From the NCBI GenBank assembly GCA_001604275.1, contig LVBD01000014.1:1-38659 (forward strand): a DNA stretch of 38,659 nucleotides, written 5' to 3'. A program made the position numbers and the translations under genes. The notes beneath the pieces are model-generated. The model saw only the letters and a program-made list of their open reading frames with translations. It was not told where the DNA came from and ran no database searches. Shown here piece by piece: positions 4,650 through 16,252 of this stretch (position 1 is its first letter; each line of letters opens with the position of its first letter). This DNA is from Spirochaetales bacterium Spiro_02. Lineage in GTDB: Bacteria; Spirochaetota; Spirochaetia; Sphaerochaetales; Sphaerochaetaceae.

Positions 4650-5516
4650 GTGCAATTCCATATACCTGTCGCGGAAGACAAGCAAGCCTATGAAAGACTG
4701 TGCCGCGAAATTTCGTGTCTCGCCTATGAATATCGTTTTTCGTTCCTTTGGCTTTGGAAGGATTCAGGGGATTTTTCCATCTGCATCGAAGATGACGCCG
4801 CATATCTGTATAGCGCGAAGTTCAAGCTGTTTCTGGCGCCGATCACAAAAGACATGCATGAAGCGTTGGATAGACTCTATGCATATTGCAAGAAGACCGA
4901 CAAGCCGTGCATCCTTACCAGCGTCCCGCAGAACGTCGTCGATCTGATCAAGGACGATCCACGCTATATGATCGAACGGTCCAGGGAACTGGACGACTAC
5001 GTCTACACGTCGGAGAAGCTGATCTCCCTTTCCGGGAAGAAACTGCAGGCGAAAAGAAACCATATTTCCCAGTTCGAGCGCGACTGTTCGTTCACATTCA
5101 ACGAGCTGACGAAGAACGATTTCGAGGAATGTCTCGCATTGGATGATTTCTGGAACTCCCAGCACGACGCTTCATCGGAGGTCCGCGCCGAACGCATCGC
5201 CTTGGAGACCGCTTTCCGGGACTGGGACATGCTCGGATTCATCGGGGCGGTGATCAGGGTCGATGGCAAAGTCGAAGCATTCACTGTCGGAGAAATCGTC
5301 GACGAGACAGAAGCGATCGTCCACTTCGAGAAAGGCAACACGGAATGCCATGGTATCTATCCGACGATCAATCGGCTTTTCTGCGCAAGGTTTCTTTCGA
5401 AAGTGAAGTATGTCGACCGACAGGAGGACATGGGGCTGGAATCGCTTCGCAAAGCGAAGATGTCGTACCACCCCGACCTGATGGTCGAAAAATATACTGT
5501 GGAGCGTATATGCTGA
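4650..5516 (+). CDS. DUF2156 / phosphatidylglycerol lysyltransferase-like domain protein
   Basis: 288-aa cytosolic protein of the DUF2156 family, built on a double GNAT-like fold related to the C-terminal domain of lysyl-phosphatidylglycerol synthase and to FemX-type aminoacyl transferases. Recognisable family blocks are SGKKLQAKRNHISQFER (about residues 128-144), LGFIGAVIRVDGKVEAFTVGE, AIVHFEKGNTECHGIYPTINRLF and the C-terminal DRQEDMGLESLRKAKMSYHP. The start is GTG with GAAGGAAGG (4636-4644) 5 bases upstream; no in-frame ATG fits the family N-terminus. There are no membrane helices, so it is the stand-alone soluble form whose substrate is not known. It overlaps the next gene (ATGCTGA), which implies coupled translation of two acyltransferase-fold proteins. 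Confidence 0.85.
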   Translation: MQFHIPVAEDKQAYERLCREISCLAYEYRFSFLWLWKDSGDFSICIEDDAAYLYSAKFKLFLAPITKDMHEALDRLYAYCKKTDKPCILTSVPQNVVDLIKDDPRYMIERSRELDDYVYTSEKLISLSGKKLQAKRNHISQFERDCSFTFNELTKNDFEECLALDDFWNSQHDASSEVRAERIALETAFRDWDMLGFIGAVIRVDGKVEAFTVGEIVDETEAIVHFEKGNTECHGIYPTINRLFCARFLSKVKYVDRQEDMGLESLRKAKMSYHPDLMVEKYTVERIC

Positions 5517-6367
5517 TCCGGAGCGCGCGTGTGGTGGACAGAGAAGAGCTTCAGGAGCTGTGGGGCCTCGTATTCGATGAGGAACCGGGGTTCCTCGACA
5601 TGTTCTTTTCGCTCCGCTTCGATCCCTCCCATGTGTTCCTCATCGAGGAGGACGGACGGATCGTCAGCGCGCTGCATGCGTTGCCTTCCAGGTTTCTGAG
5701 AGCCGATGGCGACACGAGCGACGCTACGAACATCGTCGGTGCGGCGACTCTTGCGCAGTACAGGCGGCGCGGCTACATGGAGGCGTTGCTCAAGCATGTC
5801 AGGAAGTCGGGTACGACTCCGGTGCTGCTCTACCCTGCCGTCAGGGCGTACTATGAAAAGAACGGCTTTTGCAGCTGCAGCGTCTCGACACTGTATGATC
5901 TGGAACGAAGCGGAGGAATACAGGAAGACCGGTGCCGACCGGACGAAACGCATTCGCAACCGGACGAAATATTTTCGAACGCCTTGCTCGACCGGTTCGA
6001 TGCGGCGTATGTCGCGTCGATCACCCCGAAAGGTGGCTTGTTGCGGGATCGCGACGGATGGAAGCTGCTGTTGCAAGGCTATGCTCCGTCGATCGTCACG
6101 GAAGACGGACGAAGGTATGGTTCCGCAGGGTTCGCCTATGCGTTCGTCGTCGGCGATACAGCGGTGGAGACAGCCGCCCAAGACGGGCCGTCCGCGCAGG
6201 CGCTCATAGACGCATTGACAGATCGAGGGGTCGCAAAGGTCAGGGCGATGGAAGCGTCCCCAGTCGATACGTTCCTTTCTGCCTCCGCGCTCCCACGATC
6301 GACGATGCAGGAAGGCATGACGTTCCCCGCCCTCCCCGGCAATCCGTTCATCGGCGAACAATACTGA
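5510..6367 (+). CDS. GNAT-family N-acetyltransferase with C-terminal extension
   Basis: 285 aa. The N-terminal 130 residues form a GNAT domain: beta strands around VFLIEEDGRIVSALHALPSRF, then the acetyl-CoA loop TLAQYRRRGYMEALLKHV (RRRGY in place of the usual Q/RxxGxG/A) and PAVRAYYEKNGF as the last conserved segment. The remaining 150 residues resemble the second half of Eis-type double acetyltransferases only loosely. The frame is open from 5345, inside the DUF2156 gene, but ATG 5510 overlaps that gene's stop and gives the normal GNAT start. Acceptor unknown. The pairing with DUF2156 suggests a shared modification of an amino acid, peptide or lipid; that is inference. Confidence 0.8.
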   Translation: MLIRSARVVDREELQELWGLVFDEEPGFLDMFFSLRFDPSHVFLIEEDGRIVSALHALPSRFLRADGDTSDATNIVGAATLAQYRRRGYMEALLKHVRKSGTTPVLLYPAVRAYYEKNGFCSCSVSTLYDLERSGGIQEDRCRPDETHSQPDEIFSNALLDRFDAAYVASITPKGGLLRDRDGWKLLLQGYAPSIVTEDGRRYGSAGFAYAFVVGDTAVETAAQDGPSAQALIDALTDRGVAKVRAMEASPVDTFLSASALPRSTMQEGMTFPALPGNPFIGEQY

Positions 6368-8107: not shown

Positions 8108-8206
8108 ACCCGCTTTCTTTGCTTTCATCGGACTATCGATGCATACCTACAAAAAAAATCGTCAACGCGAAAGAAACATTTGCTTTTTTCAAGAAGTTTG
8201 TACAGA

Positions 8207-9319
8207 ATGTCTGACATGAAACAGATGACGGGCTGGCTCAAGCTCATACTCATCGCACTCGTGTGCGTCCTACTGATCATCGGCGGCTATCTGGCCTATG
8301 TTGTCATCCAATACGACAGGATTCCCGACAACATCGCGCTTGCATGCGAGAATCAGCAGGCAGGAAGCCTTCTCCACGGTGAGGAATATACCGCAGCGAC
8401 ATACAACATCGGATTCGGTGCATATGGTCCTTCCTATAGCTTCTTCATGGACACGGGAACAATGCTTGACGGAACAGACGTCGTCGGCAAATACGGCAAG
8501 GCGGAAAGCAAGGAATCGGTGCTGCACAATACGGATGGCGCGATCGGACTGCTACGGACCCTCGATCCCGACTTCGCGCTCGTTCAGGAAGTGGACACCG
8601 ATGCGACAAGAAGCTACCACATCGACCAAATGGAGAGGATTGTGCAGGCGATGCCCGACTATGGATATACGTTCGCTCTGAATTTTCACTCTGCATGGCT
8701 TCACTATCCGTTGCACGATCCCCATGGCAAGACTGAAGCCGGACTGCTGACACTCGGCAGATACAGGATGGAAGACTGCGTACGGCGTAGCTATCCCGTC
8801 GACGAAGCATTCCCTACCCGGTTCTTCGACCTGGACAGATGCTTCTCCGTACAGAGGATTCCGGTGGACAACGGCAAGGAACTGGTCCTGATCAACAGCC
8901 ATATGTCGGCATACGACAAGGGGGGCCTGATCCGGACCAGGCAGTTCGATATGCTCAACTCCATCGCCTCCGAAGAATACAGGAACGGCAACTACGTGAT
9001 CATCGGCGGTGATTTCAACCATGCTCTCGGCTCGGACGTGGCCGAAGCGTTCCCTACCGAACAGCGTTTTCCGGAATGGGTCTTCATTCTTACCAACGAC
9101 GATCTGACTCCGGGCCTTCGGATCGTTGATGCGGACAACGCCATGGAAGTGGCGACCTGCAGAACCGCGGACATTCCGTATGAGAAGGGAGTCAACTTCA
9201 TGACGGTGATCGACGGGTTCATCGTGTCGGAAAACGTGACGGCACAGGCGGTGAACATCGAGACGGAATTCGCATTCAGCGACCATCAGCCAGTCCTGAT
9301 GCGGTTCAGACTCAAATAG
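8207..9319 (+). CDS. membrane-anchored endonuclease/exonuclease/phosphatase-family hydrolase
   Basis: 370 aa with one N-terminal membrane segment (about residues 9-32, LKLILIALVCVLLIIGGYLAYVV) that places the catalytic domain outside the cytoplasm. The EEP fold is shown by ATYNIGFG (start), LVQEVD (metal-binding Glu), LINSHMSAYD, VIIGGDFNHALG and the terminal SDHQPVLMRFRL with catalytic His. The family splits phosphodiesters or phosphomonoesters with Mg2+ in substrates such as DNA, sphingomyelin or inositol phosphates; the substrate here is unknown. The start codon is uncertain: ATG 8207 or ATG 8216, neither with a good Shine-Dalgarno. TTGCTT (8180-8185) and CAGAAT (8203-8208), 17 apart, would place transcription start almost at ATG 8216. 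Confidence 0.82.
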   Translation: MSDMKQMTGWLKLILIALVCVLLIIGGYLAYVVIQYDRIPDNIALACENQQAGSLLHGEEYTAATYNIGFGAYGPSYSFFMDTGTMLDGTDVVGKYGKAESKESVLHNTDGAIGLLRTLDPDFALVQEVDTDATRSYHIDQMERIVQAMPDYGYTFALNFHSAWLHYPLHDPHGKTEAGLLTLGRYRMEDCVRRSYPVDEAFPTRFFDLDRCFSVQRIPVDNGKELVLINSHMSAYDKGGLIRTRQFDMLNSIASEEYRNGNYVIIGGDFNHALGSDVAEAFPTEQRFPEWVFILTNDDLTPGLRIVDADNAMEVATCRTADIPYEKGVNFMTVIDGFIVSENVTAQAVNIETEFAFSDHQPVLMRFRLK

Positions 9320-9336
9320 CGAGACTTCGGGCCAGA

Positions 9337-9357
9337 CCGATGCGTAGCGTGCATCGG
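9337..9357 (+). other. 7-bp hairpin after the EEP hydrolase gene
   Basis: CCGATGC (9337-9343) and GCATCGG (9351-9357) are exact inverted repeats with a 7-base loop, 18 bases after the stop codon. A short T run (9370-9375) comes 12 bases later, so it is at best a weak terminator. Confidence 0.4.
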
Positions 9358-9407
9358 AGCAATGATACATTTTTCTGCAATTATATGCAAAAAATATGCA
9401 AGACTGT

Positions 9408-9437
9408 TTGACATTCATCGCATCGGCATGCGAGAAT
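9408..9437 (+). promoter_or_regulatory. promoter of the tyrosine phenol-lyase-like gene
   Basis: A consensus TTGACA (9408-9413) is followed after 18 bases by GAGAAT (9432-9437, 4 of 6 matches). The transcript would start near 9444, which rules out the upstream in-frame ATG at 9396 and supports the start at 9471. Confidence 0.5.
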
Positions 9438-9470
9438 GACGCCATTCTCATACTTCCCGAGAGGCACATG

Positions 9471-10919
9471 ATGGCAGACATCTCGTTTTTTAGCGGCGAG
9501 CGGATTCCATTGGAACTCCACAAGGTTCGCATCGTACAGAAGCTCGATCTGGTTCCGATCGAACGAAGGCTCGAGGCTATTTCTGAAGCCGGCAACAACA
9601 CATTCCTTCTCCAGAACAAGGACATCTTCCTCGATATGCTCACCGACAGCGGCGTAAACGCAATGAGCGACAAGCAGCTTGCGGCGATGATGATATGCGA
9701 CGACAGCTATGCAGGCAGCGCCACGTTCACACGCCTGACGGAAAAGCTGACCGAAATCTTCGGCATGGATTATTTCCTTCCCGCCCACCAAGGCAGAGCG
9801 TGCGAGAACATCCTCGCAATGTCCCTTGTGAAGACCGGGAACATCATCCCGATGAACTATCATTTCACCACGACGAAAGCACATATCACGAGAATGGGAG
9901 GACGCGTCGAGGAGCTGCTGATCGACGAAGGGATCAAGACGACCAGCGTCCATCCGTTCAAAGGCAACTTCGACCTCGCCAAGCTGAAGGCGCTGATCGA
10001 GCGCGTCGGAGCTGAAAACATTCCTTTCATCAGGCTGGAATCAGGCACGAATCTCATCGGAGGACAGCCGTTTTCCCTGGAAAACGCAAAAGCGGTCTGC
10101 GCAATGGCCCACGAACACGGGATCCTGACAGTCCTCGATGCAAGCCTGCTTCAGGACAACCTGTATTTCATCAAGACGAGGGAAAGCGCATGCAAGGATA
10201 TGAGCGTCCGGCAGATCACCCGTGAACTCGCCGATCAGATGGACATCATCTATTTTTCCGCTCGAAAACTCGGGTTCGCAAGGGGCGGCGGCATCTGCAT
10301 ACGCTCGAAGAAATTGTGCGATTCGATGCGGGAACTGGTCCCGATGTTCGAAGGATTCCTCACCTACGGCGGAATGAGCGTCCGGGAAATCGAGGCGATG
10401 ACCGTCGGTCTGGAAGAGACGATGGATATGGATATCATTTCCCAAGGTCCGCAGTTCATCCAGTACATGTGCGAGCAGTTAATCAAGAACGGAGTACCGG
10501 TAGTCACTCCTCCGGGAGGGCTGGGTTGCCACCTCAACGCTTCGGAGTTCATCCCCCAGGTTCCGCAGAACCAGTATCCGGCGGGAGCGCTCGCAGCAGC
10601 CGTCTATCTTGCCGGCGGAATCCGCGGCATGGAGCGAGGCACGTTGTCGGAACAACGGGAGGAGGATGGCACCGAACATATGTCGTCAGTTGAATTACTC
10701 AGACTTGCACTGCCCCGCAGGGTGTTCACGCTTTCCCAAGTGAAGTATGCGATCGACAGGATCACGTGGCTCTACCAGTACAGGAATATGATCGGAGGAC
10801 TGAAGTTCGTCGAGGAACCTTCCAGCCTCAGGTTTTTCTTCGGCCGTCTGGAGCCGATAGGAGACTGGCAGACCGAGCTGGTACACCAGTTTAGGAAGGA
10901 TTTCGGAACCAGCCTGTAG
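9471..10919 (+). CDS. tyrosine phenol-lyase/tryptophanase-family PLP enzyme, divergent
   Basis: 482-aa fold-type I PLP beta-eliminating lyase, family length. It is closer to tyrosine phenol-lyase than tryptophanase: LTDSGVNAMSDKQ (58-69), SYAGS (79-83), HQGRACEN (106-113), FTTT (132-135), TNLIGGQP (193-200), D223 for the PLP ring nitrogen, Schiff-base K266 and MERG (387-390), whose Arg matches the phenol-binding Arg381 of the Citrobacter enzyme; LPRR (414-417) holds the substrate-carboxylate Arg. Odd changes: the first Lys of the SGKKD motif is Arg (SARKL, 263-267), and the Arg three residues after the PLP Asp is Leu (DASL, 223-226). PVGGHA becomes PPGGLG. The start at 9471 has GAGAGG 6 bases upstream; 9468 and 9396 are alternatives. 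Likely makes pyruvate and ammonia from an amino acid, but substrate and even activity are open. Confidence 0.88.
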   Translation: MADISFFSGERIPLELHKVRIVQKLDLVPIERRLEAISEAGNNTFLLQNKDIFLDMLTDSGVNAMSDKQLAAMMICDDSYAGSATFTRLTEKLTEIFGMDYFLPAHQGRACENILAMSLVKTGNIIPMNYHFTTTKAHITRMGGRVEELLIDEGIKTTSVHPFKGNFDLAKLKALIERVGAENIPFIRLESGTNLIGGQPFSLENAKAVCAMAHEHGILTVLDASLLQDNLYFIKTRESACKDMSVRQITRELADQMDIIYFSARKLGFARGGGICIRSKKLCDSMRELVPMFEGFLTYGGMSVREIEAMTVGLEETMDMDIISQGPQFIQYMCEQLIKNGVPVVTPPGGLGCHLNASEFIPQVPQNQYPAGALAAAVYLAGGIRGMERGTLSEQREEDGTEHMSSVELLRLALPRRVFTLSQVKYAIDRITWLYQYRNMIGGLKFVEEPSSLRFFFGRLEPIGDWQTELVHQFRKDFGTSL

Positions 10920-15015: not shown

Positions 15016-15211
15016 TGACACAACTGTTTTGGGAATCGATCAGCAAGCACGCTAATATCGCCCTCAGTATATATCGATATCTTTTTATCTTGACTGTCCG
15101 CAAAAAATTGACGTTATTTGGGGGGAAGGCATGGGAGATGGGAAACGATTCATCTCCAACGTCCTTCCTGTATCGGAAGGGTACAGACAATCCATTTCAA
15201 GAGGTACCGAT

Positions 15212-16252
15212 ATGGTGAACAATGAAAAGATTCGTGTCGTCCAGTATGGTTGCGGAAAAATGTCCAAGTACATTCTTCGCTATCTCTATGAATCCGGCGC
15301 CGAAATCGTGGGAGCGATCGACGTGAATCCCGCCGTGGTGGGCATGGACGTAGGGGATTTCGCCGGACTTGGCAGGAAGCTGGGGGTCGTCATCCAGAAA
15401 GATGCGGACGCGGTTCTCGACGCATGCGATCCGGATATCGCGGTGCTCACATTGTTCAGCTTCATGGATGATGTCGAACCTCATTTCGAACGTTGCGCGA
15501 AACGGGGGATCAACGTCATCACGACATGCGAAGAAGCGATCTATCCATGGACGACATCGGCGGCGATCACCAACAGACTCGACAAGATGGCGAAGGAAAC
15601 CGGCTGTACCATCGTCGGATCGGGAATGCAGGACATCTATTGGATCAACATGATCGCATGCGTGGCAGGCGGTGTGCATAGGATCGACAGAATCGAGGGC
15701 GCGGTAAGCTACAACGTAGAAGACTACGGCCTTGCGCTGGCAAAAGCGCATGGCGCAGGACTCACCCCAGCGGAATTCGAAGAACAGATCGCCCATCCGA
15801 CTACTCTCGAGCCTTCGTACGTATGGAACTCCAACGAAGCCCTTTGCAACAAGATGGGCTGGACGATCAAATCGCAGACGCAGAAGTGCGTCCCGTATTT
15901 CCATGACAAGGATCTGTATTCAGCGACGCTGGGAAGTACGATCAAAAAAGGGAACTGCATCGGAATGAGCGCGGTCGTGACAACGGAAACTTTCCAGGGC
16001 CCGGTCATCGAGACCCAGTGCATCGGAAAAGTCTACGGCCCCGACGACGGCGACATGTGCGACTGGAAGATCAAAGGGGAACCCGACACCACGTTCTATG
16101 TACAGAAGCCTGCGACCGTCGAGCACACCTGCGCGACGATAGTCAACAGGATTCCGACCGTCCTCAATGCGCCGGCCGGATACATTACGGCGGAAAAGCT
16201 CGAACCGGTGCAGTACCTCTCCTACCCGATGAACATGTATCTCGATTACTAG
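15212..16252 (+). CDS. DapB-like NAD(P)-dependent dehydrogenase, resembling 2,4-diaminopentanoate dehydrogenase
   Basis: 346 aa. The N-terminal Rossmann fold ([40 protein letters not shown] as the dinucleotide loop) and the following [46 protein letters not shown] match the dihydrodipicolinate-reductase-like group that includes Ord, the 2,4-diaminopentanoate dehydrogenase of ornithine fermentation. Ord yields 2-amino-4-oxopentanoate and ammonia. The neighbouring ornithine genes (oraS, oraE, ortA, ortB) are not in the window, so the substrate is uncertain. ATG 15212 is preceded by AAGAGG 7 bases away; the longer frame from 15131 has no such site. Confidence 0.75.

Follow-up and report, generated by a model that had tools for sequence, protein, structure and literature searches.

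The gene at positions 9471–10919 of the window (the whole stretch of spirochaete DNA that was analysed, 38,659 nucleotides in length) encodes a fold-type-I PLP enzyme with approximately 40% identity to tyrosine phenol-lyase (TPL). By sequence comparison, the protein belongs to a third, monophyletic branch of the TPL/tryptophanase family, which had previously not been separated. The family as such is known, but the clade is new, and its likely role is opposite to its annotation. With roughly balanced confidence, we propose that this clade works for tyrosine supply, its members being standalone PLP-dependent tyrosine synthases that use TPL chemistry in the C–C bond-forming direction. We infer tyrosine as the product, phenol as the ring donor and the identity of the three-carbon donor. 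The spirochaete copy in the window would do likewise by orthology only, because ARG-box-like sites replace the T-box found elsewhere and both TyrA and chorismate synthase are retained in the genome that carries it. The features of the window gene are as follows.

9376–9400, forward strand: putative ARG-box-like operator, overlapping TGCAATTATATGCA / TGCAAAAAATATGCA, just 5' of the −35 element.
9408–9437, forward strand: putative promoter TTGACA-N18-GAGAAT with a weak −10 element, found by inspection.
9459–9464, forward strand: predicted ribosome binding site GAGAGG.
9468, forward strand: tandem ATG before the coding sequence.
9471–10919, forward strand: coding sequence of the TPL-like PLP enzyme, 482 amino acids, ATG at 9471.
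9708–9710, forward strand: codon of Tyr80 (TPL Tyr71, ring-carbon protonation), kept in 73/73 and 13/13 sequences.
9867–9869, forward strand: codon of Thr133 (TPL Thr124, contact to the phenol OH; typical tryptophanases have Asp here).
10146–10148, forward strand: codon of Leu226 in place of TPL Arg217, Leu in 73/73 against Arg in 28/28 TPL/TnaA sequences.
10263–10268, forward strand: codons of Arg265 (TPL Lys256) and the Schiff-base Lys266, 73/73.
10521–10526, forward strand: codons of Leu351-Gly352 (TPL His343-Ala344), 73/73.
10635–10637, forward strand: codon of Arg389 (TPL Arg381, phenol OH), 73/73.

A longer frame of the gene, with its start at 9396, runs across the putative promoter. Directly past the upstream gene (8180–9319), an inverted repeat (CCGATGC...GCATCGG, 9336–9357) is possibly the terminator of that gene.

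When the window protein was searched against the PDB, the top match was TPL (1c7g, 3e-110) and TnaA was second. The protein passes PF01212 for beta-eliminating lyases (168.8 bits, with a gathering cut-off of 27) and the broad NCBI subfamily model NF009709 'tryptophanase', the name that annotation pipelines give to clade members. It scores below the cut-offs of the TPL equivalog TIGR02618 (436.6 versus 720.7 bits) and of the TnaA equivalogs TIGR02617 (338.4 versus 825.8 bits) and NF053783 (379.8 versus 750 bits). Four further clade members reach 421–452 bits with TIGR02618; L067, which is TPL-like but not part of the clade, reaches 768 bits and passes. When the AlphaFold model of the window protein (pLDDT 89.7, pTM 0.90) was compared with known structures, 443 residues aligned with TPL at 1.6 Å and a Z of 52, followed closely by TnaA (Z 50.7) and, far behind, by threonine aldolases (Z 33).

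A homologue scan of 84,980 species genomes yielded 58 loci that are 63–80% identical to the window protein over nearly the full length (two are truncated by contig ends). Below this level the identity falls sharply, the next loci being 38–44% identical and of TPL/TnaA type. Extra members at 58–66% identity were found in one order of Bacillota and in the family to which the window's genome belongs. The clade extends over Spirochaetota, Bacillota, Bacteroidota, Actinomycetota, Pseudomonadota, Verrucomicrobiota and Kiritimatiellota. In a maximum-likelihood tree, 46 sampled members make up one side of a branch with an SH-aLRT of 100 and a long stem, and TPL and TnaA lie together on the opposite side. 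The sequence-only reading had set the protein apart from standard TPL and tryptophanase and had proposed a tree as the check; the protein indeed lies outside both clades, including that of the characterised TPLs, and its scores fall far short of the two curated cut-offs. The spirochaete sequences form a branch nested with Clostridia that bear the T-box (L021, L030, L039, L008 and L060; SH-aLRT 97), which is consistent with a putative acquisition from Clostridia. Among plasmids, the search returned a single member of the clade (from Rhodobacter sp. CZR27, 67%), the other matches being ordinary TPL/TnaA.

In TPL, the hydroxyl group of the substrate is bound by Arg381 and Thr124 and the ring carbon is protonated by Tyr71 (PMC9262865), and in Arg381 mutants the activity on tyrosine is lost or impaired whereas that on other substrates is unaffected (PMC3870968). 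These three residues, together with Met379, Arg404, Phe448 and Phe449, are kept in 72–73 of the 73 clade sequences, and Asn185, Asp214 and Lys257 are likewise kept. The indole site of typical TnaA, comprising Asp137 and His463 (E. coli numbering), is absent from the clade, which has Thr (73/73) and Phe (72/73) at these positions, as does TPL. The side facing PLP differs from TPL. Three replacements picked out in the sequence-only reading, namely Arg to Leu226 by the PLP Asp, Lys to Arg265 before the Schiff-base Lys and GGHA to GGLG in a loop, are borne out by alignment with TPL (R217 to L226, K256 to R265, and H343 to L351 with A344 to G352), and the sites described there as kept are also confirmed (D223, K266, R389 for TPL R381 and R411 for TPL R404). 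Leu226, Arg265 and GGLG are invariant in 86/86 relatives from seven phyla (73 + 13 sequences), and therefore the replacements are neither chance nor sequencing error; in the TPL/TnaA comparison set, positions 217 and 256 are Arg and Lys in 28/28. Leu226, Arg265 and Leu351 occur in every clade member checked, and the basic Arg271 does so with one exception, against Arg, Lys, His and Asn in 27–28 of 28 TPL/TnaA sequences. Further changes that are fixed or nearly fixed (TPL to window numbering) are E69 to D78, D258 to L267 (or F), N262 to R271, I263 to G272, M288 to F296 and F346 to H354, and a C-terminal extension of the clade carries an invariant W466. Because the residues that handle phenol are kept and those on the PLP side are changed, the ring site is of the phenol-enzyme type and the PLP side has been rebuilt. 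We infer that the PLP-site changes tune the enzyme for synthesis. However, Leu226 and Arg265 could cripple or redirect the PLP chemistry, which counts against a tyrosine synthase; among the papers searched, no roles were found for these residues under the names Arg217 and Lys256.

T-box leaders are activated by uncharged tRNA. Such leaders were first noticed upon reading the regions upstream of clostridial loci and were then confirmed as RF00230 (Rfam). The matches directly upstream of the orthologue score 111–131 bits at L039, L062, L030 and L021 and 128.7 bits at L054; other leaders score 98 (L166), 92 (L053, copy 2), 87 (L168) and 63 bits (L060/L165), and that at L008, which is truncated by the contig end, scores 52 bits. 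The specifier triplet is UAC (tyrosine) in 10/10 leaders, all from Bacillota. This reading was calibrated on T-boxes of the same genomes, such as GAA-UGG-A (TrpB-like), GAAU-AUC-A (ileS), GAAG-GUC-G (valS) and GAA-CCU-A (proS); the identities of the TrpB-like, ileS, thrS and hisS genes were checked, and valS and proS were recognised by eye. The antiterminator is UGGU in 10/10 leaders and not the UGGA of the thrS leaders in two of these genomes, which argues against a Thr (ACA) reading of the specifier; TrpB-like leaders have UGGC. The L168 specifier is followed by C and not by a purine. T-box-bearing orthologues are scattered through the tree, including the deep branch L054. The signature was absent from 22/22 TPL/TnaA loci checked, and an Rfam search of the region upstream of the window gene gave no match and no T-box leader.

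Two observations concern individual upstream regions. A Clostridiaceae contig (L053) carries two tandem gene copies, each with its own T-box (264–554 and 2447–2738), the specifiers of which are UGC in copy 1 and UAC in copy 2, one base apart, with UGGU as both antiterminators; the copy 1 leader may be a Tyr T-box that is drifting or has changed its target. At two Oscillospiraceae loci (L020 and L027), a common element, TTTAAACTGTAAAAGCGCA...TTTAAAG, lies about 50–110 bases upstream of the gene and is possibly the operator of another regulator.

The known targets of Tyr T-boxes are tyrS, the tyrosine biosynthesis operon, phenylalanine-4-hydroxylase and the NhaC transporter (PMC2494555), all of which are on the side of tyrosine supply or use. 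The leaders described here resemble this Firmicutes regulon in that an RF00230 leader with a tyrosine specifier precedes a gene of tyrosine supply, presumably so in the present case. A target of the TPL family is not described in that survey, as the words 'tryptophanase' and 'phenol' are absent from its main text. Among the papers searched, none joins TPL with a Tyr T-box, and one that joins TPL with tyrosine auxotrophy concerns DOPA incorporation.

The genomes with T-box leaders often lack the usual final step of tyrosine synthesis, and some of them lack chorismate synthase. No Pfam match to TyrA above the cut-off was found in seven of the ten (G123, G124, G119, G125, G126, G120 and G200), TyrA being kept in G122, G121 and G326, and chorismate synthase is absent in five (G124, G119, G125, G120 and G200). 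TyrA is absent in 1/15 T-box-free Bacillota carriers versus 7/10 T-box carriers (Fisher p = 0.0017, with related genomes counted as independent and absences counted partly on MAGs, the incompleteness of which can mimic absence). A TyrA match was present in all 13 non-Bacillota carriers searched genome-wide and in 32/32 carriers of the spirochaete family, and in one order TyrA is absent in 3/15 carriers versus 49/295 of the whole sample, with no excess. The spirochaete and order-wide counts rule out TyrA replacement as a general rule, and TyrA loss is linked to the gene only where the T-box is present. The near-complete assembly of the window genome, which its nearest loci place with uncultured Spirochaetaceae, contains matches to both TyrA and chorismate synthase. 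TrpA is missing in 10/11 Bacillota carriers. In two genomes without TrpA and chorismate synthase, a TrpB2-type gene lies behind a Trp (UGG) T-box (L130:1807–3177 in G120 and L133:1749–3164 in G119), an arrangement that looks like indole salvage and would parallel the proposed salvage of phenol.

No conserved neighbours or operon were found among about 58 loci, the adjacent genes being unrelated (DnaB helicase, RecA, ribosomal S9, FTHFS, LrgB and CBAH); a self-contained one-step reaction therefore fits. A standalone gene beside varying genes is as expected of a self-sufficient, horizontally moving function. Small divergent neighbours, considered as a common Rrf2 regulator owing to the Rhodobacter locus, were rejected, their sequences being dissimilar and mostly spurious ORFs.

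In related spirochaetes, AATATTTATGCATAAAATAT occurs in the promoters of the orthologues. In one such genome the pattern has seven matches, including argF (twice) and argG, and the reversed control has none; near-matches precede trpX and leuA in other spirochaete genomes. These ARG-box-like sites are located at L155 and L159 (argF), L157 (argG), L156 (trpX) and L150 (leuA). Window positions 9376–9400 and the related sites are thus candidate ARG-box-like sites of an amino-acid regulon with a presumed regulator, and the palindromes common to the TPL-like gene and to genes of amino-acid biosynthesis and uptake suggest an ArgR-type global amino-acid regulon.

Tyrosine formation from phenol and a three-carbon unit would most simply explain why an active site of phenol type, induction by a lack of tyrosine, solitary genes and the loss of normal tyrosine synthesis occur together. 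TPL is reversible, and its synthetic direction is in industrial use; a new direction therefore suffices and new chemistry is not needed. Arg389 and Thr133 would hold a phenol, the para carbon of which would attack a PLP-bound aminoacrylate formed from pyruvate and ammonia, or from serine; Tyr80 would serve as acid/base, and L-tyrosine would be the product. The cell would thereby salvage phenol released by its neighbours. Several points weigh on the other side. Free phenol is unusual as an intended substrate, and the equilibrium favours synthesis only with ample pyruvate and ammonia; most non-Bacillota carriers, like the window genome, keep TyrA and chorismate synthase; the window gene has no T-box; and the UGC specifier of L053 copy 1 and the C after the L168 specifier depart from the pattern. 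The sequence-only reading had suggested altered chemistry or an altered substrate. The PLP-side changes behind this suggestion are real, but a change of aromatic substrate is disfavoured, because the ring-site residues are invariant and of TPL type and the Tyr T-boxes point to tyrosine; the likelier change would be in the physiological direction, towards supplying tyrosine. The wider claim, that a widespread and horizontally spread family makes tyrosine from free phenol, so that shikimate-less anaerobes would live on the waste of their neighbours and form a microbial phenol sink, is put forward more tentatively, at somewhat less than an even chance.

Opposite in direction would be a catabolic or housekeeping beta-eliminating lyase for tyrosine, DOPA or an S- or O-substituted amino acid. 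It would resemble TPL but differ in its kinetics or leaving group, and the T-box would be a lineage quirk. Membership of PF01212, best matches to TPL/TnaA, the pipeline name 'tryptophanase' and de novo tyrosine synthesis in most carriers outside the T-box Bacillota all agree with such a lyase, which we nevertheless regard as unlikely: uncharged tRNA-Tyr should not induce a catabolic enzyme, the T-box precedes ten scattered orthologues, including the deep L054, and no TPL/TnaA locus checked, and the spirochaete ARG-box-like sites are common to the biosynthetic argF and argG. The protein might also be an inactive or vestigial TPL homologue, whether a pseudo-enzyme or a regulatory PLP protein. 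The loss of the otherwise universally conserved PLP-contacting Arg and Lys speaks for it, but it is highly improbable, since the fixation of every catalytic residue and of the same replacements in 86 sequences, at 58–80% identity across phyla, points to strong purifying selection on the active site.

The main alternative anaerobic route to tyrosine is the reductive carboxylation of 4-hydroxyphenylacetate, for which indolepyruvate oxidoreductase is required. The clade might comprise tyrosine aminotransferases acting on 4-hydroxyphenylpyruvate, either imported or made from 4-hydroxyphenylacetate via indolepyruvate:ferredoxin oxidoreductase; Arg389 would then bind the side chain of glutamate as well as the phenol OH. 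Such an enzyme would also account for the Tyr T-box and TyrA loss, and the PLP-side changes could reflect its new chemistry. A full IorA occurs in the TyrA-less G119 and G124, while G221 has a nearly complete one and G123 a partial one; however, no IorA match came close to the cut-off in the TyrA-less G125, G126, G120 and G200. The C–C lyase set Tyr80, Thr133 and Arg389 is invariant, and the top structural matches are all TPL/TnaA, followed by threonine aldolase. On these grounds an aminotransferase is considered distinctly unlikely.

The proposed tyrosine synthase shares with TPL (EC 4.1.99.2; C. freundii 1tpl/2ez1, E. herbicola 1c7g; TIGR02618) its fold and the retained residues listed above, and differs from it in Arg217 to Leu, Lys256 to Arg, Asp258 to Leu, Asn262 to Arg, His343 to Leu, Glu69 to Asp and Met288 to Phe, as well as in having additional segments at both termini, in its control by Tyr T-boxes in Bacillota and in forming a separate branch. 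Its likeness to TnaA (TIGR02617, NF053783) lies in the fold and PLP core. TrpB is an unrelated fold-type-II enzyme that uses serine and in this differs from the window enzyme; the two are alike in that Bifidobacterium TrpB-type indole salvage (PMC11085991) also employs one PLP enzyme to convert an excreted aromatic and a C3 unit to an aromatic amino acid.

If the synthase is real, its physiological role would be opposite to the names 'tryptophanase' and 'tyrosine phenol-lyase' now given by annotation, many genomes would have been wrongly counted as those of tyrosine auxotrophs, and phenol would be consumed at one step in gut and digester communities. The uremic toxin phenyl sulfate has phenol made by intestinal TPL as a precursor (PMC11259132), and a phenol-removing enzyme is therefore of medical interest. 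Tyrosine and DOPA analogues could be made with an enzyme that has evolved towards synthesis, and the clade would offer a natural experiment on the PLP-site residues that determine the favoured direction in the TPL/tryptophanase family.

Two other genes of the window may be mentioned. The gene at 15131–16252 (forward strand) resembles 2,4-diaminopentanoate dehydrogenase (Ord) as a diverged homologue (150.9 versus a curated cut-off of 400 bits), and that at 4650–5516 (forward strand) encodes a standalone soluble domain of the phosphatidylglycerol-lysyltransferase C-terminal type (PF09924), adjoining a GNAT acetyltransferase (5432–6367).
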